Below are positions 36,528-45,603 of a stretch of DNA of 64,000 nt, piece after piece. Below the pieces are notes generated by a model that saw only the letters and a list, made by a program, of their open reading frames with translations, was not told where the DNA came from and did not search any database. The position numbers and the translations under genes were made by a program. Numbering within the stretch: position 1 is the first letter of the stretch; every line of letters begins with the position of its first letter. The DNA comes from Variovorax sp. (GTDB lineage: Bacteria; Pseudomonadota; Gammaproteobacteria; Burkholderiales; Burkholderiaceae_C): positions 1 through 64,000 of the forward strand of contig JAGIAI010000024.1 of NCBI GenBank assembly GCA_017744935.1, written 5' to 3'.

Positions 36528-36541
36528 TGAAACCGGTTTCA
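36528..36541. promoter_or_regulatory. PtxS-type operator palindrome
   Basis: TGAAACCGGTTTCA, a perfect 14-bp palindrome with the central CG typical of LacI-family operators. As I recall, the identical sequence is the binding site of PtxS, the 2-ketogluconate repressor of Pseudomonas. It lies two bases upstream of a -10-like box and controls an operon whose last gene is LacI-type, so binding by that protein is the natural inference. Confidence 0.75.
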
Positions 36542-36543
36542 CA

Positions 36544-36549
36544 TATACT
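36544..36549 (+). promoter_or_regulatory. -10 element of the kgu operon promoter
   Basis: TATACT, five of six matches to the sigma-70 -10 box, immediately 3' of the palindrome; the -35 region (around 36521, ACGGTT) is poor. A repressor on 36528-36541 would occupy the -35/-10 spacer. Transcription would begin near 36556. Confidence 0.5.
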
Positions 36550-36558
36550 GACCCGGCC

Positions 36559-36581
36559 CGCGATGAAGTGCGTTCATCGCG
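36559..36581 (+). promoter_or_regulatory. 5'-leader hairpin of the kgu operon
   Basis: CGCGATGAA/TTCATCGCG, a perfect 9-bp stem with loop GTGCG. It sits only a few bases after the predicted transcription start and 43 bp before the GTG of the first permease gene, so it would cap the mRNA with a stem-loop. It could alternatively be a second protein site. Confidence 0.5.
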
Positions 36582-36624
36582 AAATGCACCAACTGCGAAC
36601 ACGCACTCCAGTCCTGTTTCCTCC

Positions 36625-37296
36625 GTGAAATACCAATTCCAGTTCGACGCCGTTTTCGCCGCGTGGCCGCTGCTGCTGAAGGGCACATGGATCACGATCC
36701 AGCTCTCCCTCGTGGCGACGCTCCTGGGCCTGGTGGTGGCCATCTTCTGCGCCTGGGGCAAGGTCTCGGGGCCCAAGTGGCTGCGCTTCATCGTCAACGC
36801 GTACATCGAGGTCATCCGCAATACGCCGTTCCTGGTGCAGCTCTTCTTCTTTTTCTTCGCGCTGCCTGCAGTGGGCCTGCGGTGGTCGCCGTACACCGCT
36901 GCGTTGACGGCGATGGTCGTCAACCTCGGCGCGTATGCGGCAGAGATCGTCCGTGCCGGCATCGAGTCGATTCCCAAGGGCCAGATCGAGGCGGGCAGGG
37001 CGCTCAACCTCAAGAGCTGGGAGATCTTCCGCTTCATCATCATCAAGCCCGCGCTGAAGGCGATCTATCCCGCGCTCACCAGCCAGTTCATCCTGCTGAT
37101 GCTGAGCTCCGCAGTGGTGTCGGTGATCTCGGCGGACGACCTCACCTCGGTCGCGGCGAACCTGCAATCGCAGACCTTCCGCAGCTTCGAGATCTACATC
37201 GTGGTCGCGGGCATCTACCTCGCGCTGGCGCTGTCGTTTTCAGCGCTGTTCAAGCTGATCTATCGGCGCACCCTCAACTATCCGGACCGGCGCTGA
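36625..37296 (+). CDS. ABC transporter permease, polar-amino-acid type (1 of 2)
   Basis: 223 residues from the GTG at 36625; the frame is open to an earlier GTG at 36568, which lies in the leader hairpin loop. There are about five membrane segments and the EAA loop EAGRALNLKSWEIFRFIII near residue 140 that contacts the ATPase. It belongs to the His/Glu/Gln/Arg/opine permease family (GltJ/HisM group). It is the first gene of the kgu operon; the preceding operator and downstream kguEKD genes suggest the real cargo is 2-ketogluconate or a related sugar acid. The exact start is the least certain point. Confidence 0.85.
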   Translation: MKYQFQFDAVFAAWPLLLKGTWITIQLSLVATLLGLVVAIFCAWGKVSGPKWLRFIVNAYIEVIRNTPFLVQLFFFFFALPAVGLRWSPYTAALTAMVVNLGAYAAEIVRAGIESIPKGQIEAGRALNLKSWEIFRFIIIKPALKAIYPALTSQFILLMLSSAVVSVISADDLTSVAANLQSQTFRSFEIYIVVAGIYLALALSFSALFKLIYRRTLNYPDRR

Positions 37297-37301
37297 ACAC
37301 C

Positions 37302-37955
37302 ATGCGTACCTTCGGCTTTCCAGAATTCCTGTTCATCCTCCAGGCGGCCCAGTGGACGCTGGCGCTGTCAGCTATCGCCTTCATCGGTGGTGCGATCCTG
37401 GGGCTCGTCATTGCCCTGGCGCGGACTTCGGAGAACAGGGTGGCGCAGGTGCTGTCCACCGGCTTCATCCAGATCTTCCAGGGCACGCCGCTGCTGCTGC
37501 AGCTCTTCCTGATCTTCTTCGGCGCGCCAGTGCTGGGCTTCGACATCAATCCGTGGATTGCTGCCGGCGTGGCGCTCATCCTCAACAGCGCAGCTTTCCT
37601 TGGCGAGATCTGGCGCGGTTGCATCCAGGCGATTCCGCGCGGCCAGTGGGAGGCGGCGCATGCGCTCAACCTCAGCTACACCTCGCTCATGCGCGACGTG
37701 GTGCTGCCGCAGGCTTTCAAGATCGCGCTGCCGCCGACGGTGGGCTACGTGGTGCAGATCATCAAGGGTACTTCGCTCGCGGCCATCATCGGCTTCACCG
37801 AAGTCACGCGCGCCGGACAGATCATCAACAACGCGACCTTCCAGCCGCTGGAGGTGTTCACGACGGTGGCCGCGATCTACTTCGTCATCTGCTGGCCGCT
37901 GTCACTGCTGGCGGCGCGCATGGAGCGTCAACGCGCTCGTGCACTGGCCCGCTGA
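37302..37955 (+). CDS. ABC transporter permease, polar-amino-acid type (2 of 2)
   Basis: 217 residues, five bases after the first permease. Membrane segments at WTLALSAIAFIGGAILGLVI, LLLQLFLIFFGAPVLGF and others; the EAA motif is in WEAAHALNLSYTSLMRDVVL. It would form a heterodimeric channel with the preceding permease. Same family as GltK/HisQ. The ATG 37302 is clear. Confidence 0.9.
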   Translation: MRTFGFPEFLFILQAAQWTLALSAIAFIGGAILGLVIALARTSENRVAQVLSTGFIQIFQGTPLLLQLFLIFFGAPVLGFDINPWIAAGVALILNSAAFLGEIWRGCIQAIPRGQWEAAHALNLSYTSLMRDVVLPQAFKIALPPTVGYVVQIIKGTSLAAIIGFTEVTRAGQIINNATFQPLEVFTTVAAIYFVICWPLSLLAARMERQRARALAR

Positions 37956-37998
37956 ACGCTTCACTTCATTTCCACGTTATCAACTCAGGAGACTTCGC

Positions 37999-38796
37999 AT
38001 GATCCGTATGACCACCCGCCGCGCTGCCGTCGCAGCCCTCGGCCTGGGCGCCGCACTCACCGTGTTTGCACCGCTCGCTTCCGCGCAGAGCGTCGCCGAC
38101 ATCAAGAAGAAGGGCGAGATCACCATCGGCATGCTGGTCGATTTCCCGCCCTACGGCACGACCAACGCGCAGAACCAGCCCGACGGCTACGACGCCGACG
38201 TCGCCAAACTGCTCGCCAAGGACTGGGGCGTGAAGGCCAACATCGTGCCCGTCACCGGCCCGAACCGCATTCCCTTCCTGCTGACCAACAAGGTCGACTT
38301 GCTCGTTGCCTCGCTCGCGATCACCCCCGAGCGCGCGAAGCAGGTGCAGTTCTCGCAGCCCTATGCGGCCGCGACCATCGTGCTCTACGGCAAGAAGGCC
38401 CTGCCGATCAAGAGCGCTGCCGACCTGAAGAGCGTGCGCGTGGGCGTGGCCCGTGCGAGCACGCAGGACGTGGCCGTGACCAAGGCCGCGCCTGAAGGCA
38501 CCGAGATCCGCCGCTTCGACGACGACGCGTCCGCCATGCAGGCGCTGATGTCGGGCCAGGTCGATGCGATCGGCGCGTCGACCACCGTTGCCGCGCAGAT
38601 CGCCAAGCGCGTGCCGGCCGACACCTTCGAAAACAAGTTCACCCTGGTGCAGCAGAACATGGGCATCGCGATGCGTCCCGGCCAGGACGACCTGCTCAAG
38701 AACGTGAACGAGTTCGTGCAGAAGAACACCGCGAATGGCGAGCTGAACAAGCTCTACAACAAGTGGCTGCAGACCGATCTGCCCAAGCTGCAGTAA
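37999..38796 (+). CDS. Periplasmic substrate-binding protein, family 3
   Basis: 265 residues. A signal peptide (RRAAVAALGLGAALTVFAPL) ends at an ASAQ cleavage site. The mature protein shows the SBP_bac_3 pattern: KKGEITIGMLVDFPPYGTTN, PDGYDADVAKLLA, NKVDLLVASLAITPERAKQV and DAIGASTTVAAQIA. Such receptors mostly bind amino acids, but the operon context points to an acidic sugar. The Arg and Asp that usually hold the alpha-amino/carboxylate group should be compared with true amino-acid receptors to judge this. AGGAGA ribosome site before ATG 37999. Confidence 0.9.
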   Translation: MIRMTTRRAAVAALGLGAALTVFAPLASAQSVADIKKKGEITIGMLVDFPPYGTTNAQNQPDGYDADVAKLLAKDWGVKANIVPVTGPNRIPFLLTNKVDLLVASLAITPERAKQVQFSQPYAAATIVLYGKKALPIKSAADLKSVRVGVARASTQDVAVTKAAPEGTEIRRFDDDASAMQALMSGQVDAIGASTTVAAQIAKRVPADTFENKFTLVQQNMGIAMRPGQDDLLKNVNEFVQKNTANGELNKLYNKWLQTDLPKLQ

Positions 38797-38823
38797 GCAC
38801 CTAGGCCAACGCAGGGAACACCC

Positions 38824-39597
38824 ATGACCGACGCAGTCACGACACACGCAGGCACGGACACCATCATCCGGCTCGAGGCGGTGAACAAGTGGTACGGCAC
38901 CTTCCAGGTGCTGACCGACATCGACCTTTCGGTGCGCACCGGCGAACGCATCGTGATCTGCGGCCCCTCGGGCTCGGGCAAGTCGACGCTGATTCGCTGC
39001 ATCAACCGTCTGGAGACGGTGCAGAAGGGTCGCATCGAGGTCGACGGCATCGAGCTCACGGCCGGCGGCAAGAACGTCGATGCGGTGCGTGCCGAGGTCG
39101 GCATGGTGTTCCAGCAGTTCAACCTGTTCCCGCATCTCACCATCCTGCAGAACTGCACGCTGGCGCCGATGCGCTCGCGCGGCATGTCGAAGGCGCAGGC
39201 GGAAGAGGTCGCGATGAAGTACCTCACCCGCGTGCGCATTCCGGACCAGGCGCACAAGTACCCGAGCCAGCTTTCCGGCGGCCAGCAGCAGCGCGTGGCC
39301 ATCGCGCGTGCGCTCTGCATGTCGCCGAAGATCATGTTGTTCGACGAGCCCACTTCGGCGCTCGATCCCGAAATGGTCAAGGAAGTGCTCGACACCATGA
39401 TCGGCCTCGCCGAAGACGGCATGACCATGCTGTGCGTCACGCATGAAATGGGTTTCGCGCGGAGCGTGGCCGATCGCGTGATCTTCATGGCGGACGGCAA
39501 GATCATCGAGCAGGGCGCGCCGACCGAGTTCTTCGGCAATCCGAAGCACGAGAAGACCCGGCAGTTCCTTGGCCAGATCCTGAGCTCGCATCACTGA
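38824..39597 (+). CDS. ABC transporter ATP-binding protein
   Basis: 257 residues. Walker [11 protein letters not shown]-loop [10 protein letters not shown], signature LSGGQQQR, Walker [15 protein letters not shown] and H-loop [10 protein letters not shown] are all intact, as in GlnQ/HisP. It drives the two permeases just upstream. Its TGA overlaps the ATG of kguE by one base (TGATG), which ties transporter expression directly to the catabolic genes. Confidence 0.94.
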
Positions 39598-40349
39598 TGG
39601 CCACGCCGGTCCTCATTTCTCTTTCATCCTTCGGTGCTGCGGAGATCGGCCGCCACGGGCAGCTCTGGTGCGCGCAGCTTGCGAAGGCGGCTGGCGCGGA
39701 CAGCGTCGAGGTGCGCGGCGAGCTGCTGCGCGATCCCGCCGCCGAACTGCCGGCGCTGGCCGGTCTCGCAACTGTCTTTTCGAGCCCTGAAGGACTTTTC
39801 GCCCAGGGTGGTGACCTTGACGAAGCGGCGCTCGACCGGGGCATCGCGGCGGCAACCATGCTGGGTGCAGCACGGCTGAAGATGGCGATCGGTGACTTCG
39901 GTCCGTCGTCGCACGGACCATTGACCGGTCTCAAGGCCCGCCTGGCTGAAACCTCGATCGAACTCGTCATCGAGAACGACCAGACCGTATCCGCCGGCAC
40001 CTTGCCCGCGCTGCGGGCTTTCTTCGATGCAGCCGATTGCGTCGGGCTGGAGCTCGGAATGACCTTCGACATGGGCAACTGGCACTGGCTTGGCGAGTGT
40101 CCGCTGCAGGCCGCGCAGGCGCTGGGCCATCGAGTGCGCTACGTGCATTGCAAGGGCGTGCAGCGTCTGCCGGCGAAGTGGGTCGCGGTGCCGCTGGCCG
40201 ATTCGATCGCGCCGTGGCGCTCGGTGCTGCGCGCGCTGCCGGCGGATGTGCCGCATGCCATCGAATACCCGTTGATCGGCGATGATCTGCTCGCTGTCAC
40301 GCGCGACCAGATCGCGCACATCCGATCACTGCGATACACAACAACATGA
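39597..40349 (+). CDS. kguE: KguE-like sugar epimerase/isomerase of 2-ketogluconate catabolism
   Basis: 250 residues of the xylose-isomerase-like TIM-barrel family. Segments VLISLSSFGAAEIGRHGQ, LVIENDQTVSAGT, GMTFDMGNWHWLGECP, VRYVHCKGVQR and HAIEYPLIGDD match what I recall of Pseudomonas KguE. Metal-binding residues would be the Glu of VIEND, the Asp of TFDMGN, the His of VHCK and the Glu of AIEYP. The precise reaction in the pathway is unsettled. It overlaps both neighbours (TGATG in, ATGA out), so it is translated in a chain with the ABC ATPase and kguK. Confidence 0.82.
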   Translation: MATPVLISLSSFGAAEIGRHGQLWCAQLAKAAGADSVEVRGELLRDPAAELPALAGLATVFSSPEGLFAQGGDLDEAALDRGIAAATMLGAARLKMAIGDFGPSSHGPLTGLKARLAETSIELVIENDQTVSAGTLPALRAFFDAADCVGLELGMTFDMGNWHWLGECPLQAAQALGHRVRYVHCKGVQRLPAKWVAVPLADSIAPWRSVLRALPADVPHAIEYPLIGDDLLAVTRDQIAHIRSLRYTTT

Positions 40350-41296
40350 CTTCATCTGCCTTCGATGTCGCTCTGTTCGGCGAGGCCATGCTGCTGCTGG
40401 TCGCCGACCAGCCCGGCCCGATCGAGAACGCCACCGCTTTCCACAAGCGCACTGCCGGCGCTGAAACCAACGTGGCCATCGGCCTCGCTCGCCTCGGTCT
40501 GAAGGTCGGCTGGGCGAGCCGCCTCGGCACCGATTCGATGGGGCGCGCCCTGCTGGCCACGATGAAGGCGGAGGGCATCGATTGCTCGCACGTCATCAGC
40601 GACGCGACACAGCGCACCGGCCTGCAGTTCAAGGGCCGCGTGACCGACGGCAGCGATCCGCCGGTCGAGTCGCACCGCAAGGGCTCGGCTGCAAGCTACA
40701 TGGGTCCGGTCGATGTCGACGAAGACTGGCTGCGCTCGGCGCGCCACCTGCATGCCACCGGCGTATTCGCGGCAATCTCCGAGACGAGCCTTCAGGCCGC
40801 GATCAAGTCGATGGACGTGATGCGCGCAGCCGGCCACACCATTTCCTTCGATCCCAACCTGCGCCCGACGCTCTGGTCCTCGCCGGAGGTGATGCGGCAC
40901 TGGATCAACGACCTCGCTGCCCGCGCCGACTGGGTGCTGCCCGGCATCGAGGAGGGCCTGATCCTGACCGGCCACGACACGCCGGAAGCCATCGCGCGCT
41001 TCTACCGCGAGCGCGGCGCGAAACTGGTGGTGGTCAAGCTCGGCGCCAAGGGCGCCTACTACGACAGCGATGTCGCGGGCACCGGCATCGTGGAAGGCTT
41101 TCCGGTCAAGGAAGTGATCGACACCGTCGGCGCTGGTGACGGATTCGCCGCCGGCGTGGTCAGCGCCTTGCTCGAAGGCAAGTCGGTGCCTGAAGCCGTT
41201 CGCCGCGGCGCGTGGATCGGCGCGCGCGCAGTGCAAGTGCTGGGTGACACCGAAGGCCTTCCTACGCGCAAGCAACTCGAGGAGGCCAACCTGTGA
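40346..41296 (+). CDS. kguK: 2-ketogluconate kinase (PfkB family)
   Basis: 316 residues. PfkB-type sugar kinase: N-terminal substrate signature TAGAETNVAIGLARLGLKVG, and the C-terminal ATP/anion-hole motif DTVGAGDGFAAG with catalytic base D265. By fold it could also be 2-keto-3-deoxygluconate kinase (KdgK); the flanking kguE and kguD and the PtxS-type operator favour 2-ketogluconate, giving 2-keto-6-phosphogluconate. ATGA overlap with kguE and GTGA overlap with kguD. Confidence 0.82.
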   Translation: MTSSAFDVALFGEAMLLLVADQPGPIENATAFHKRTAGAETNVAIGLARLGLKVGWASRLGTDSMGRALLATMKAEGIDCSHVISDATQRTGLQFKGRVTDGSDPPVESHRKGSAASYMGPVDVDEDWLRSARHLHATGVFAAISETSLQAAIKSMDVMRAAGHTISFDPNLRPTLWSSPEVMRHWINDLAARADWVLPGIEEGLILTGHDTPEAIARFYRERGAKLVVVKLGAKGAYYDSDVAGTGIVEGFPVKEVIDTVGAGDGFAAGVVSALLEGKSVPEAVRRGAWIGARAVQVLGDTEGLPTRKQLEEANL

Positions 41297-42279
41297 CACG
41301 TAAGAAGATTCTCGTCTTTCGCGAGTTGCCCGACGACCAGCTCGAGCGGCTCAGGGCCGAGCATGAAGTCACCGTCGCCAATCCGCGCATCGACGCGCAG
41401 CGCGAGGCTTTCGATGCCGCGCTGCCTCTCGCGCAGGGCCTGATCGGTTCGAGCTTTCCCGTCGACGATGCGCTGCTGGCGCGCGCGCCGCAACTCGAAG
41501 TGGTCTCCAGCGTGTCGGTCGGCGTCGACAACTACGCGCTCGCCGCGCTGCATGCGCGCGGCATCATGCTGTGCCACACCCCAGGTGTGCTCGACGAGAC
41601 CGTGGCGGACACGGTCTTCGCGCTGCTGATGGCGACCAGCCGCCGGGTGGTCGAGCTTTCGAACCTCGTGCGCGAGGGCCGATGGACGCAGAACATCGGT
41701 GAAGACTTGTTTGGCTTCGACGTACACGGCAAGACGATTGGCCTGCTGGGCTTCGGCCGCATCGGGCAGGCGATCGCGCGCCGTGCCTCGCTCGGCTTCG
41801 GCATGCCGGTGCTCTATCACGCACGCCGGACTGTGGACCTTGCCGCGCAGGCGCCCGAGTTGCAGGGACGCGCGCTGCACACGCCGCAGGGCGAGCTTCT
41901 TGCGCGCGCCGATTTCGTGGTCGCGATGCTGCCGCTGTCGGACAGCACGCGCGGCATGATCGACGCCCGCGTGTTCGACGCGATGAAGCCGGGCGCGATC
42001 TTCATCAACGGTGGACGCGGCGCCACGGTGCGCGAAGACGCCTTGCTCGCCGCGCTCGACAGTGGCCGCTTGCGGGCCGCCGGACTCGATGTCTTCGCCA
42101 CCGAACCCCTGCCCAAGGATTCGCCGCTGCGCACCCACCCGCGCGTGACGCCGCTGCCGCACGTCGGCTCGGCCACGCACGAGACGCGCCATGCAATGGC
42201 CGAGCTCGCGACGACGAATCTGCTGCGTGCCCTGGCGGGCGAGCGTCCGCTGGCGGTCTACGACACGGCCGCCGCTTGA
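41293..42279 (+). CDS. kguD: 2-ketogluconate-6-phosphate reductase (D-2-hydroxyacid dehydrogenase family)
   Basis: 328 residues with a GTG start overlapping the kguK stop (GTGA). The NAD(P)-binding domain has GLLGFGRIGQAIARRASLGF. Catalytic Arg, Glu and His of the family are in INGGRGATVRE, FATEPLPKDSPL and LPHVGSATHETR. In the kgu pathway it reduces 2-keto-6-phosphogluconate to 6-phosphogluconate, feeding Entner-Doudoroff. Without the context it would be called glyoxylate/hydroxypyruvate reductase, and such side activity is common in the family. Confidence 0.82.
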   Translation: MTRKKILVFRELPDDQLERLRAEHEVTVANPRIDAQREAFDAALPLAQGLIGSSFPVDDALLARAPQLEVVSSVSVGVDNYALAALHARGIMLCHTPGVLDETVADTVFALLMATSRRVVELSNLVREGRWTQNIGEDLFGFDVHGKTIGLLGFGRIGQAIARRASLGFGMPVLYHARRTVDLAAQAPELQGRALHTPQGELLARADFVVAMLPLSDSTRGMIDARVFDAMKPGAIFINGGRGATVREDALLAALDSGRLRAAGLDVFATEPLPKDSPLRTHPRVTPLPHVGSATHETRHAMAELATTNLLRALAGERPLAVYDTAAA

Positions 42280-42293
42280 ACGCGAGAACACCC

Positions 42294-43313
42294 ATGCAGC
42301 GCTCGGCCCGCGCGACCATCGCCGATGTCGCCAAGGTGGCGGGCGTCTCCAAGGCCACCGTTTCGCGCTTTCTCAACCATCGCGAACGGCTGCTGAGCCC
42401 GGACATCGCCGCGCGTGTCGAAGCCGCCGTCGCCCAGCTCGACTACACGCCGAGCCCGATGGCCCAGGCGCTGAGCCACGGCCGCTCGCGACTCATCGGC
42501 CTGATCGTGGCCGACATCACCAATCCTTATTCGGTCGCGGTGCTGCGCGGCGCCGAGAAGGCCTGCCAAGACGCCGGCTACCTGGTGATGCTGTTCAACC
42601 TCGGCAACGACATCGATCGCGAACGCGAAGCCATCGATGCGCTGGCCGGCTACCAGGTCGACGGATTCATCCTCAACACGCTGGGCCGGGGGGTGGGTCT
42701 CGCCGACGCCGAGGCGCTGCATGGCAAGCCAGCGGTGCTGGTGGACCGTCGGCATGCGGGCATGCACACCGACTTCGTCTCCCTCGACAACGGCGCGGCC
42801 ATGAAGGCGGCCTGCGGTCATCTGGTCGAAGGCGGATTCCGCGAACTGCTCTACATCACGGAGCCGCTCAAGGGCGTGAGCTCGCGGCGCGAACGCGCGA
42901 CCGCCTTCGGTGGCTGCATGGCTGCGCACGAGCCGCGCGTGACCGGCGAGGTGTTCGAGTGCACGGGCGAAGACAGCGACAGCCTCGATGCGGCGCTGCG
43001 GGCGCTGCACAAGCGTGCCAAACGCGGCCGGCGCGTAGCAGTGCTCGCCGGCAATGCAGTCGTGACGCTGCGCGTCGCGAGTGCGATGGCAAGGCTGGGC
43101 CTGCGCTTTGGCACCGATATCGGCTTCGTGGGTTTCGATGACCCCGAGTGGGCGCCGCTCATCGGCCCCGGCCTGAGCGCCATTGCACAACCCACCGATG
43201 CGATTGGCCGAACGGCTGCGACCTGCCTGATCGAGCGCCTCCAGGGCCTCGAAGGGCCGCCGAGGCAGTTGCTGCTGCCGGGTGAGTTGATTGTTCGAGG
43301 TTCGTCAGGCTGA
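42294..43313 (+). CDS. ptxS: LacI-family repressor, PtxS-like
   Basis: 339 residues from ATG 42294; a TTG at 42276 overlapping the kguD stop would add six residues. The helix-turn-helix is at the N terminus (TIADVAKVAGVSKATVSRFL, residues 8-27), followed by the hinge helix SPMAQALSHG and a periplasmic-binding-protein-like sensor domain (LIGLIVADITNPYSVAVLRG onward). Being last in the operon, with a perfect LacI-type palindrome at the operon promoter, it is most simply an autoregulated local repressor responding to 2-ketogluconate or its phosphate. The name rests on operator and neighbours rather than on detailed sequence recall. Its 3' end overlaps the convergent cyclase gene by 9 bp. Confidence 0.78.
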   Translation: MQRSARATIADVAKVAGVSKATVSRFLNHRERLLSPDIAARVEAAVAQLDYTPSPMAQALSHGRSRLIGLIVADITNPYSVAVLRGAEKACQDAGYLVMLFNLGNDIDREREAIDALAGYQVDGFILNTLGRGVGLADAEALHGKPAVLVDRRHAGMHTDFVSLDNGAAMKAACGHLVEGGFRELLYITEPLKGVSSRRERATAFGGCMAAHEPRVTGEVFECTGEDSDSLDAALRALHKRAKRGRRVAVLAGNAVVTLRVASAMARLGLRFGTDIGFVGFDDPEWAPLIGPGLSAIAQPTDAIGRTAATCLIERLQGLEGPPRQLLLPGELIVRGSSG

Positions 43314-44102
43314 TCCGCCGACCGCTTCCTCTACCAGCGCCAGCACCCGCAACGGACTGCCCGAGCCTTCCTGGATCTTCAGCGGAGCCGACACGATGAG
43401 CGCGCCGGTCGGCGGCAGCTGATCGAGGTTCTTCAGGCATTGCAGCCCGTAGCGGTTGGCCCCGTGCATCAGCGTGTGGCACGGGTACGCCAGGGGCCAG
43501 GCATAAGACTGTCCCGCATCGGTGTTGATCGTCTCCACCCCGAAGCCGTGCACTTTGCGTTCGTGGATCAGCCATTCGACGGCGGCCTGCGTCGGTCCCG
43601 GCGTGTGCGCGCCGTCGTCGTGCATGTTGACGAAGGCAGCCGGGTCGGCGAGGCGCTTGGACCAATCGGTGCGCAGCAGCACCCAGGCGCCTTCGGGAAT
43701 GCGCCCGTGCGTGGCTTCCCATGCCTGGAGGAAGTCGACCGTCAGCAGCCAGTCCGCGTTCTGCGCGACTTCCGCGCTCGCATCGACCACGACGGCCGGC
43801 GCGATGAAGTTGTCGGGCGCGATGGTGTCGACGGTGTTGCGTTGATGGTCCTTGCCGGTGACCCAGTGCGCGGGCGCGTCGAAATGCGTGCCGGTGTGTT
43901 CGCCGCAGGAGAAGTTGTTCCAGTACCAGCCGGGGCCGGCTTCGTCGTAGTGGGAGATACGCTCCATCTTGAAGGCCGACACCTGCCCGAACTGCGGCGG
44001 GAGTTGCAAGGCGGGAAAGTCCTCGCTCAACGTGTGGGTGAGGTCGATGGTGCGAACGGTGCGGTTGCGCATTGCATGCGCGAGCTGGGTCAGGAGGCTC
44101 AT
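43305..44102 (-). CDS. Cyclase family metal-dependent hydrolase
   Basis: 265 residues of the kynurenine-formamidase/isatin-hydrolase-like cyclase family. The metal motif is GEHTGTHFDAPAHW (H69, H73, D75, H79). An upstream DLTHTLSEDFP and a downstream VETINTDAGQSYAW are typical. Members hydrolyse amide bonds of aromatic amides with manganese or zinc. It is the last gene of a minus-strand operon of PLP enzyme, START-like protein, Bug receptor and RidA homologue, so it probably acts on an amide or lactam intermediate of the same unknown pathway. No signal peptide. Confidence 0.86.
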   Translation of the reverse strand: MSLLTQLAHAMRNRTVRTIDLTHTLSEDFPALQLPPQFGQVSAFKMERISHYDEAGPGWYWNNFSCGEHTGTHFDAPAHWVTGKDHQRNTVDTIAPDNFIAPAVVVDASAEVAQNADWLLTVDFLQAWEATHGRIPEGAWVLLRTDWSKRLADPAAFVNMHDDGAHTPGPTQAAVEWLIHERKVHGFGVETINTDAGQSYAWPLAYPCHTLMHGANRYGLQCLKNLDQLPPTGALIVSAPLKIQEGSGSPLRVLALVEEAVGGSA

Positions 44103-44147: not shown

Positions 44148-44537
44148 TCATGCAGCGCGACGCGCGGTCACTTCGATCTCGACCTTGGCGCCTTCCACCG
44201 CGAGCGGACTGCACACGGTGGTGTTGGCCGGGCGGTTCGCGCCGAGACGCCGGCGCAGCACCTGGCTGACGGCGATGACGTCATTGCGGTCCGGAACGTA
44301 GACCCGAACTCGGACGACATCTGCGAGGCTTGATCGCGCTTCGGCGAGCGCGCTCTCGATCGTGTCCAGTGCGAGTTCGCTTTGCCGCTCGACACTCTCG
44401 GGAAAGGTGCCCGTCTGGAAGTCCTGGCCGATCGTGCCGGAGACGAAGACCCATTCGCCATCGATCACCGCGCGCGAGTAGCCTGCCAGTTCTTCCCATT
44501 GCGATCCGCTCCGGATGAATTGCCGGGAGGCGGTCAT
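44148..44537 (-). CDS. RidA-family protein lacking the catalytic arginine
   Basis: 129 residues with the YjgF/RidA chorismate-mutase-like fold (VIDGEWVFVSGTIGQDFQTG, SLADVVRVRVYVPDR, VEGAKVEIEV). The arginine that true imine deaminases use to bind the substrate carboxylate (R105 of E. coli RidA) is Asn here (N105, in NRPANTTV), which places it in a non-canonical Rid subgroup. Start ATG 44537 is used; the longer open frame runs through the intergenic element. Function in the operon is uncertain: perhaps a binding protein or a different hydrolase. Confidence 0.82.
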   Translation of the reverse strand: MTASRQFIRSGSQWEELAGYSRAVIDGEWVFVSGTIGQDFQTGTFPESVERQSELALDTIESALAEARSSLADVVRVRVYVPDRNDVIAVSQVLRRRLGANRPANTTVCSPLAVEGAKVEIEVTARRAA

Positions 44538-44598
44538 TGGGCGCCCCCCGTGCGCCGCACTGCGGTGCGAGCCCCCTTCGGAGCGGCCGGGCGGGAAC
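44538..44598 (-). repeat. Possible intergenic repeat unit between Bug and RidA genes
   Basis: 61 bp filling the whole gap, C/G-rich, with the palindrome CCGCACTGCGG at its centre. It begins directly after the Bug stop codon and ends at the RidA ATG. I recall similar sequences repeated in Variovorax genomes, but only one copy is in this window. Confidence 0.4.
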
Positions 44599-45603
44599 TC
44601 ATGACGCCTTGAAGCCCGATTCGCGGATGACCTTGCCCCAGGTCGCGTTCGCATCGATGACCCATTGCTCGACTTCCTTGCCTGAGGCGGGGGTCACTTC
44701 GTTGCCCATCTTGGCAAGGCGTTCCTGCAGGTCCGGCTGCGCGAGCACCTCCTTCACCGCGCGCTCGAATGGCGCAATGAAATCAGCCGGCACGCCTTTC
44801 GGACCGAAGAACGCGAGCCACGGGTTCTTGTCGATGCCGTTGAAGCCCAGTTCACGGAAGGTCGGTATCTCGGGTGCGGTCTTGCTGCGCTCTTCACCCG
44901 AACTCGCGAGGATGCGTACTTTGCCGGCCCGGTGGTACTCGATCAATTCGGTCATCGACGCGATGCCGATGGGAACCTGGCCGGCGAGCAAGTCCTGCAC
45001 CATCGGAGCGCCGCCTTTGTACGGCACCGAGTTCATCGGTACGCCGAAGGACTTGCCGATCACATGCCCGATGAACTGCGGAACGCTGCCGGCGGCGGGC
45101 ACGCCGTAGTTGGCTTCGGAAGGGTGCGCCTTGAGCCACGCGCCAAGCTCCGCCATCGACTTCACGCCGGTGGCCGCGCTGACGGCGAGCACGTTGTAAT
45201 AGCCGGCCACGCCTGCGAGCGGCGTGAAGTCCTTGACCGGGTCGTAGCCCGCCGCGGCGACGGTCAGGGGAACGATCACCTGCGTATGGTCGATCGACAG
45301 CATGATCGTCGAGCCGTCCGCAGGCGCCGCTTTGAGCAACTGCGCCGCGATCTGTCCGCCCGCGCCGGGCTTGTTGTCGACGACGAAGACCTGCCCGTTC
45401 ATCGCCTTTCCGAGCTTGTCGATGATCGCGCGCGCCACCACGTCGGTCGCGCCGCCGGGCGGGAAGCCCACCAGCACGCGGATCGGCCCGCTGTAGGCCT
45501 TGGCGGCAGCGCTCAGTGGCGACGAGAGCGCCGGCGCGATCAGTGATGCGGCAAGAGCCTGGCTGAACTGGCGTCGATTCATGCGGAAAGTCCTCGTGGT
45601 CAT
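44599..45603 (-). CDS. Bug-family (tripartite tricarboxylate transporter) solute receptor
   Basis: 334 residues. Twin-arginine-like start MNRRQFSQALAASLIAPALS precedes the receptor. Bug signatures are IRVLVGFPPGGATDVVARAI, VFVVDNKPGAGGQIAAQLL, MLSIDHTQVIVP and VPYKGGAPMVQDLLAGQVPI. These periplasmic proteins bind small carboxylates or amino acids; in Burkholderiales many are orphan receptors without local membrane partners, as here. The ATG at 45603 overlaps the upstream stop (ATGA), which favours it over the internal ATG at 45582. Confidence 0.9.
   Translation of the reverse strand: MTTRTFRMNRRQFSQALAASLIAPALSSPLSAAAKAYSGPIRVLVGFPPGGATDVVARAIIDKLGKAMNGQVFVVDNKPGAGGQIAAQLLKAAPADGSTIMLSIDHTQVIVPLTVAAAGYDPVKDFTPLAGVAGYYNVLAVSAATGVKSMAELGAWLKAHPSEANYGVPAAGSVPQFIGHVIGKSFGVPMNSVPYKGGAPMVQDLLAGQVPIGIASMTELIEYHRAGKVRILASSGEERSKTAPEIPTFRELGFNGIDKNPWLAFFGPKGVPADFIAPFERAVKEVLAQPDLQERLAKMGNEVTPASGKEVEQWVIDANATWGKVIRESGFKAS

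Follow-up and report, generated by a model that had tools for sequence, protein, structure and literature searches.

The window analysed here is a stretch of 64,000 nucleotides from Variovorax sp. (contig JAGIAI010000024.1, positions 1 to 64,000), and positions 36528–43313 of it carry what is probably a 2-ketogluconate utilization (kgu) operon served by an ATP-binding cassette (ABC) importer. The gene order behind an operator is permA-permB-receptor-ATPase-kguE-kguK-kguD-lacI, and all eight genes lie on the forward strand; that they run in one direction had been stated in an earlier note made from the sequence. The first gene encodes permease A (36568–37296) and the second permease B (37302–37955), both of the amino-acid (HEQRo) type, with matches to TIGR01726 over its cut-off (105 and 98.5 bits, respectively) and to PF00528. 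The start of permease A is probably the GTG at 36625 and not 36568, since relatives open with (M/V)NYQFQFD. The next gene encodes a periplasmic receptor of the SBP_bac_3 family (37999–38796; PF00497), whose AlphaFold2 model is good, with a predicted local distance difference test (pLDDT) score of 84.5. It is followed by an ABC ATPase of the glutamine/ectoine type (38824–39597; PF00005; NF007027 at 321 bits, below its cut-off of 379). The transporter had been assigned to the amino-acid ABC family, and the receptor, the HEQRo permeases and a matching ATPase are indeed all present.

The remaining four genes follow directly. The kguE-like gene (39597–40349) encodes a TIM-barrel protein with a weak PF01261 match below cut-off and 36–42% identity to the kguE of kgu loci in other families, which by gene order are probably those of Pseudomonas, enterobacteria and Burkholderia relatives. 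The kguK gene (40346–41296) encodes a predicted 2-ketogluconate kinase of the PfkB family (PF00294, 200 bits; 53–57% identity to kguK of the other families), and kguD (41293–42279) a predicted GhrB-like 2-keto-6-phosphogluconate reductase (NF011938 at 345 bits, below cut-off; 46–51% identity). kguK and kguD thus occur together in the locus, with enzyme functions assigned from sequence. The last gene encodes a LacI-family regulator of the PtxS type (42276–43313; PF00356 and PF13377), which is 38–46% identical to the kgu regulators of other families and has the recognition helix VSKATVSR. The overlaps of start and stop codons described earlier for the ATPase gene through kguD were recovered (ATPase/kguE 1 nt, kguE/kguK 4 nt, kguK/kguD 4 nt), and kguD and lacI, absent from that list, also overlap by 4 nt. 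The source genome contains edd twice over cut-off, so 6-phosphogluconate can enter the Entner–Doudoroff pathway.

The linkage of the importer to the kgu genes was followed through 397 genomes of the family, with the six best candidates per genome scored in the kguE and receptor searches. A receptor orthologue was defined by at least 69% identity (the next lower candidate has 50%), and three of 53 kguE matches, with E above 1e-4, were excluded as weak. By these thresholds kguE is present in 50 genomes, the receptor in 61 and both in 44; in 42 of these 44 the two genes share a strand, with the receptor gene 785–1111 nt upstream of kguE, and in the other two they are on different contigs. The receptor stands directly upstream of kguE or kguK in 57 of its 61 genomes, the remainder comprising two that are split across contigs, one that is cut off and one without kgu genes. 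The contig of genome G141 ends inside the receptor gene. All 17 receptor genomes without kguE were fetched, and kguK follows straight after the ATPase gene in 15 of them, with kguD present too in 12, which indicates that the importer's fixed partner is kguK and that kguE is dispensable. Within the genus, kguE was found in 34 of the 37 genomes of the relatives search, source genome included. Six kguE genomes do not have this first type of receptor: two (G099 and G438) have an ABC set of a second type, and four belong to genus g70, where no ABC gene was found in the stretch fetched around the kgu genes.

A scan of genome contigs with receptor sequences alone gave a further set of loci, the best 80 of 419, from Variovorax, Xenophilus, Acidovorax, Simplicispira, a Comamonadaceae isolate and metagenome-assembled genomes (one of them Rhodoferax). 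kguE and/or kguK lie downstream of the receptor in 78 of these receptor-search loci, and in the other two the sequence stops at most 0.4 kb from the receptor. A chance neighbourhood was rejected on the adjacency in 42 of 44 genomes and on these 78 of 80 loci.

Ahead of the eight genes, at 36528–36541, lies the exact palindrome TGAAACCGGTTTCA, with TATACT 2 nt downstream of it. This is the PtxS palindrome of P. aeruginosa as printed in PMC5902321, a source that gives 2-ketogluconate as the PtxS effector. The PtxS-type operator claimed for the locus is therefore present in exact form; it is the sole exact match in the window, and 83 bases separate it from the probable start of permease A. Three window matches at up to three mismatches are within chance (10 of 100 shuffles gave as many). 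In the source genome the operator is the only match with 0–1 mismatch, and a reversed control pattern also gives one site at the same tolerance; this control gives 0–3 sites per genome at up to one mismatch across the 26 genomes searched. The operator is exact in 15 of 16 genomes of the genus, the sole miss being a genome that is 62% complete. Eighteen scrambled palindromes gave 0–3 matches each at up to two mismatches in 530 kb of loci.

At the start of the ABC genes, an operator with 0–1 mismatch was found in 35 of the 41 fetched loci of the first type with permA in view (24/24 in the first fetched set and 11/17 in the set without kguE), and both loci of the second ABC type also have one ahead of their ABC genes. 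Control of the ABC genes by the LacI protein had been left at stake in the earlier note, and these counts are in its favour. Two of the four g88 genomes have neither operator nor kguD. Among the receptor-search loci, 78 of 80 have the exact operator by permA and one has no permA in view; in one of the 80, no operator was found within five mismatches.

The operator occurs in two forms across kgu loci, TGAAACCGGTTTCA and TGGAACCGGTTCCA, and the regulator appears to follow them. In an alignment of 18 regulators, loci with TGAAACC encode the helix VSKA(T/S)VSR and loci with TGGAACC (TGGAACCGGTTCCA) encode TGKTS(V/I)SR; L111 and L115, which carry TGGAACCGGTTCCA, were left out of this alignment. The helix change tracks the operator form and so ties the regulator to the operator. 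The forms separate L109–L111 and L115–L118 from L112–L114 and the window. The VSKAT helix plausibly contains the residues Lys-25 and Ala-26 named for PtxS in PMC5902321. The locus thus combines a PtxS-type regulator with its operator, DNA binding being predicted.

The reference for the Pseudomonas-type permease KguT, a member of the major facilitator superfamily (MFS), was the MFS gene of locus L113, which lies between kguK and kguD. An MFS gene takes this position in kgu loci of other families, and KguT of the L113 type is encoded in 10 of 11 such loci (L113 counted), with 68–94% identity in the other nine. No KguT orthologue was found in any of the 397 family genomes (E 1e-90, four best candidates scored per genome). 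The same search was positive in 13 of 16 other-family kgu genomes, the query's own included, and its three misses belong to one genus (g172), whose one fetched locus, L119, is without KguT. In the source genome the best-scoring match is 31% identical and is no orthologue, and no KguT-like gene was found at E 1e-20 in the 80 receptor-search loci. The absence of KguT, claimed for the locus, therefore extends to the source genome, the receptor-search loci and the family, and the survey of related genomes that had been proposed, for the ABC set with kgu genes and without kguT, came out favourably. The source assembly is 88% complete and could hide a gene, which weighs against this absence; a hidden KguT was rejected on the 31% best match, the 0 of 397 family genomes (four best candidates scored in each) and the 13 of 16 controls.

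It is very improbable that a distant MFS protein or another transporter carries 2-ketogluconate and that the ABC set imports a co-metabolite or co-inducer. MFS proteins do exist in the genus, at 24–33% identity to KguT, and the g70 kgu genes are found with neither ABC genes nor KguT and with a DctP receptor close by (two loci, by Pfam). However, 24–33% is far below the 68–94% of KguT orthologues, and nothing KguT-like at E 1e-20 accompanies the importer in the 80 receptor-search loci.

Two groups of loci without KguT show other surroundings. In the g70 loci (L098, L297, L298 and L299) the kgu genes have no ABC or KguT gene in the stretch fetched, and a DctP-type receptor of a tripartite ATP-independent periplasmic (TRAP) transporter lies close by (Pfam match in L297 and L299, by eye in L098); L098 has a shikimate-dehydrogenase-looking gene between the kgu genes and this receptor. 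The DctP-type TRAP transporter of g70 is possibly a third type of carrier for the kgu pathway. Locus L119 contains kguE, kguD and a LacI gene; kguK and kguT were not found in it. By eye, its neighbour is a GMC/cytochrome/gamma-subunit set with the look of a gluconate dehydrogenase, suggesting another route.

The receptor was aligned with HisJ, ArgT and GlnH of E. coli. It retains the Arg that contacts the ligand carboxylate (HisJ Arg77), and it has Ala in place of Ser72/Thr70 and Ser in place of Asp161/Asp157, the residues that hold the alpha-ammonium group. The PDB titles of the LAO mutants D11, R77, F52 and D161 are consistent with binding-site residues. The Ser/Thr plus Asp of the alpha-ammonium site of amino-acid receptors is thus absent from the window receptor, and the comparison of ligand contacts suggested earlier has yielded residues that fit a carboxylate without an amino group. 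The retained Arg with Ala and Ser at the ammonium positions is seen in 42 of 42 orthologues and in 79 of the 80 receptor-search loci, with the remaining one missed at the first position by the script's pattern. The source genome has 16 other SBP_bac_3 matches; Ser/Thr plus Asp is present in nine, and some of the remaining ones are partial or sensor-type.

These residues bear on the alternative that the genes encode a true amino-acid importer merely positioned upstream of kgu genes. Its family names and the nearest solved structures, which in a fold search with the AlphaFold2 model were mostly amino-acid receptors, speak for it and count against a sugar-acid ligand; the proximity of the model to amino-acid receptors is what family membership would predict. 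No sugar-acid ligand was named in the titles among the structure matches listed. A further point on that side is structure 9e2b, solved with L-tryptophan, in which Ser stands at the Asp position and the other Ser is retained, so that loss of the Asp alone was rejected as proof of a non-amino-acid ligand. Both ammonium side chains are lost in the window receptor, however, and with linkage in 57 of 61 genomes, overlapping genes, an operator shared in most loci and no KguT-type carrier found, this alternative retains very little probability. An ordinary amino-acid importer was rejected on the loss of the ammonium site in all 42 orthologues and its retention in nine of the 16 other receptor matches of the source genome.

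The locus is accordingly read, with good confidence, as a 2-ketogluconate utilization operon whose uptake step is served by an ABC importer of the polar-amino-acid (PAAT) family in place of the MFS permease KguT. The importer is likely to be ATP-driven, to carry 2-ketogluconate or a close ketoaldonate and to stand under a PtxS-type repressor, binding being predicted. The analysis demonstrates the gene content, order and conservation, the operator, the finding of no KguT orthologue and the lost ammonium contacts; the ligand, the direction, the kinetics and the effector are inferred. The earlier note had proposed that the ABC set replaces KguT for 2-ketogluconate or another aldonate, a view supported here with the substrate remaining a deduction. 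In the open-access literature, no description of kgu genes with an ABC importer was found in titles or abstract starts among the matches listed; most subscription journals are outside that scope.

In the proposed route, 2-ketogluconate would come from outside the cell, produced by neighbouring organisms or, in certain strains, perhaps by the cell's own gluconate dehydrogenase. The receptor would catch it via its carboxylate, using the conserved Arg, and the two-permease/ATPase core would import it at the cost of ATP. KguK would then phosphorylate it and KguD would reduce the product to 6-phosphogluconate, which would be passed to the Entner–Doudoroff pathway. The LacI/PtxS-type protein would occupy the single operator before permease A until released by 2-ketogluconate, and since one operator lies ahead of all genes, importer and enzymes would be induced together. 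The gamma subunit of gluconate dehydrogenase (PF13618) was matched in six of 26 family kgu genomes and in 15 of 22 other-family kguE genomes (13 of the 22 were shown to carry KguT); within the genus it is present in 11 of 25 genomes, source included. The counts lean towards ABC species scavenging and KguT species producing their own 2-ketogluconate, which is not claimed because it is confounded by ancestry and because the PF13618 family is probably broader than gluconate dehydrogenase.

The main rival reading is a different substrate, with importer and enzymes serving mainly another 2-ketoaldonate or sugar acid (2-keto-gulonate, gluconate or 5-ketogluconate); it is given a low probability, though a higher one than the two alternatives above. 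KguK and KguD belong to broad families, and in Ketogulonicigenium vulgare, which is known for 2-keto-L-gulonate, a 52% relative has a KdgK-like kinase and a 2-hydroxyacid dehydrogenase as neighbours. The KguK of C. necator also accepts 2-keto-D-gulonate and two 2-keto-3-deoxy acids according to PMC6651773, and with a specificity this broad the substrate could be another ketoaldonate. Set against this, the operator and regulator match the PtxS system, with 2-ketogluconate as the effector given in PMC5902321, and kguE, kguK and kguD match those in KguT-bearing kgu operons.

Together with the C. necator kinase, several observations weigh against 2-ketogluconate import as the function of the locus. 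No NCBIfam model is over cut-off for KguK or KguD, and a scan for sigma-70 consensus promoters found none. Genome G303 has the ABC set with no kgu genes, kguK included, in the 7 kb fetched downstream; G123 and G291 have kguK and no adjacent kguD, and G169 also has no adjacent kguD. Operator sites in G177 and G412 have two mismatches, and in G123, G291, G303 and G141 the operator was not found at up to two mismatches in the stretch fetched. These few exceptions leave the linkage, and with it the confidence in the main reading, unchanged. Finally, G303 and a second importer copy in G024 indicate that close relatives may carry something else.

The residue changes extend to a wider group of receptors. 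In a tree of 79 receptors, the Asp-less ones closest to the window receptor form one 70-row branch (support 100/100) apart from the canonical receptors, and all 27 sampled rows at 37–68% identity have lost the Asp and retained the Arg. Within this branch, L209 has genes for a ManD mannonate dehydratase (760 bits, over cut-off), a KdgK-like protein and a fructuronate-reductase-like protein by the receptor, L205 has a tagaturonate-reductase-like gene and L191 a 2,4-didehydro-3-deoxy-L-rhamnonate-hydrolase-like gene. Other members have no clear partner, or peptidase- or dehydratase-looking neighbours by eye (L197, L203 and L212), and on account of such members the residue rule is not proven for the whole branch. 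The second kgu-linked ABC set, found in two genera (G099 and G438), has a receptor-first order; its receptor shares 43–46% identity with that of the first set and clusters in the tree with the receptor of the L209 mannonate operon (100/100). The tree warns of long branches, L209 among them, so this placement is good and not beyond doubt. That the kgu pathway captured an importer of this kind on two separate occasions, each time behind the same operator, is better explained by function than by accident.

The second copy in G024 (locus L190 on G024:C1; 68–70% identity) has Ser and Ala at the ammonium positions, and its neighbours are CoA-transferase, SDR and DUF993 genes.

Relatives of the importer on plasmids were examined in twelve regions out of 244 records. 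In V. paradoxus VAI-C an 81% relative is accompanied by an arabinonate-dehydratase-like gene and by a relative of KguD (74%), and CP063167 encodes a 79% receptor without a permease beside it. The Microvirga relative (67%) follows GMC oxidoreductase genes, and that of Azospirillum (63%) precedes KguD-like and LacI-like stretches in a record without annotation. Relatives at 52–59% lie between a LacI gene and a 2-hydroxyacid dehydrogenase gene (35–38% to KguD) in two Sinorhizobium, a Neorhizobium (annotated otherwise), Paracoccus and Ketogulonicigenium vulgare, and the sets of the last two also include a sugar kinase. The 46% set of Agrobacterium is followed only by an unassigned oxidoreductase gene, and two Rhizobium plasmid relatives of 42–48% adjoin dehydroquinate dehydratase genes.

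Two of these regions, L306 (4500–11097, Ketogulonicigenium vulgare plasmid 2) and L308 (Paracoccus), comprise a LacI gene, a related ABC importer, a 2-hydroxyacid dehydrogenase, a KdgK-like kinase and a gene annotated as FAH family, and are candidate ketogulonate-type uptake operons. Ahead of their ABC genes, L307, L309 and L310 have the palindrome TTTAGATCGATCTAA, and looser versions of it occur in L306 and L308. The neighbours in L311 and L312 (Rhizobium plasmids), L198 and L204 are dehydroquinate dehydratase, shikimate-dehydrogenase-like, Gfo/Idh-looking or CoA-transferase-looking genes, and these relatives are possible quinate/shikimate importers under an amino-acid name.

The available evidence leans moderately towards a reading in which an entire branch of the "polar amino acid" ABC importers takes up polyhydroxy carboxylates, marked by the lost Asp and the kept Arg and drawn repeatedly into sugar-acid operons. 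The operons on which this draws are those for 2-ketogluconate (twice), mannonate/fructuronate, tagaturonate-type, deoxy-sugar-acid and arabinonate-type substrates, and perhaps quinate/shikimate.

An Rfam scan of the window gave no match, and terminator-like matches were at chance level. A cyclase-family gene (PF04199) lies downstream on the opposite strand (43305–44102), followed at 44148–45603 by RidA-looking and Bug/TTT-type receptor-looking genes, identified by eye. The cyclase neighbour recurs in only five of the 80 receptor-search loci within the flanks fetched and is probably unrelated to the operon.

Annotation of transporters leans on family names, and here the name says amino acids, whereas the evidence from operon, operator, residue changes and repeated recruitment favours a sugar acid. 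This suggests that part of an importer family named for amino acids really carries sugar acids. If the reading of the locus as a 2-ketogluconate operon is true, it would identify the 2-ketogluconate carrier so far missing in Variovorax and related bacteria, provide a simple residue rule for recognizing sugar-acid receptors among the many called amino-acid receptors, and add a binding-protein importer for a compound that matters in soil and in industry. The kgu genes would then be a natural case of one catabolic pathway with unrelated carriers (MFS, ABC and possibly TRAP). If the reading of the whole branch is true, many beta- and alphaproteobacterial genes annotated for amino-acid transport would be misnamed.

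The closest known systems include the Pseudomonas kgu operon (kguE, kguK, kguT and kguD with ptxS); kguE, kguK, kguD, the LacI/PtxS-type regulator and the 14-bp operator are common to both. It differs in encoding the MFS permease KguT, one of its defining parts, whereas in the window the operon opens with the four genes of an ABC importer; ABC-type kgu loci also have the regulator gene last or upstream, and kguE is missing in some genomes. TRAP (DctP) uptake of sugar acids is binding-protein dependent like the window importer, but uses a different receptor family and no ATPase; its genes are not in this window, and a DctP gene lies near the kgu genes in g70. NocT, OccJ, SocA and cyclohexadienyl dehydratase have a fold in common with the window receptor at 17–28% identity. 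Going in part by structure titles, each of them either still binds an amino-acid derivative or is an enzyme. The PAAT systems (GlnHPQ, HisJQMP and ArgT) share with the window the SBP_bac_3 receptor, the HEQRo permeases, the GlnQ-like ATPase and the carboxylate Arg. Their amino-acid receptors keep the ammonium side chains, whereas the window receptor has neither and belongs to the separate 70-row branch.

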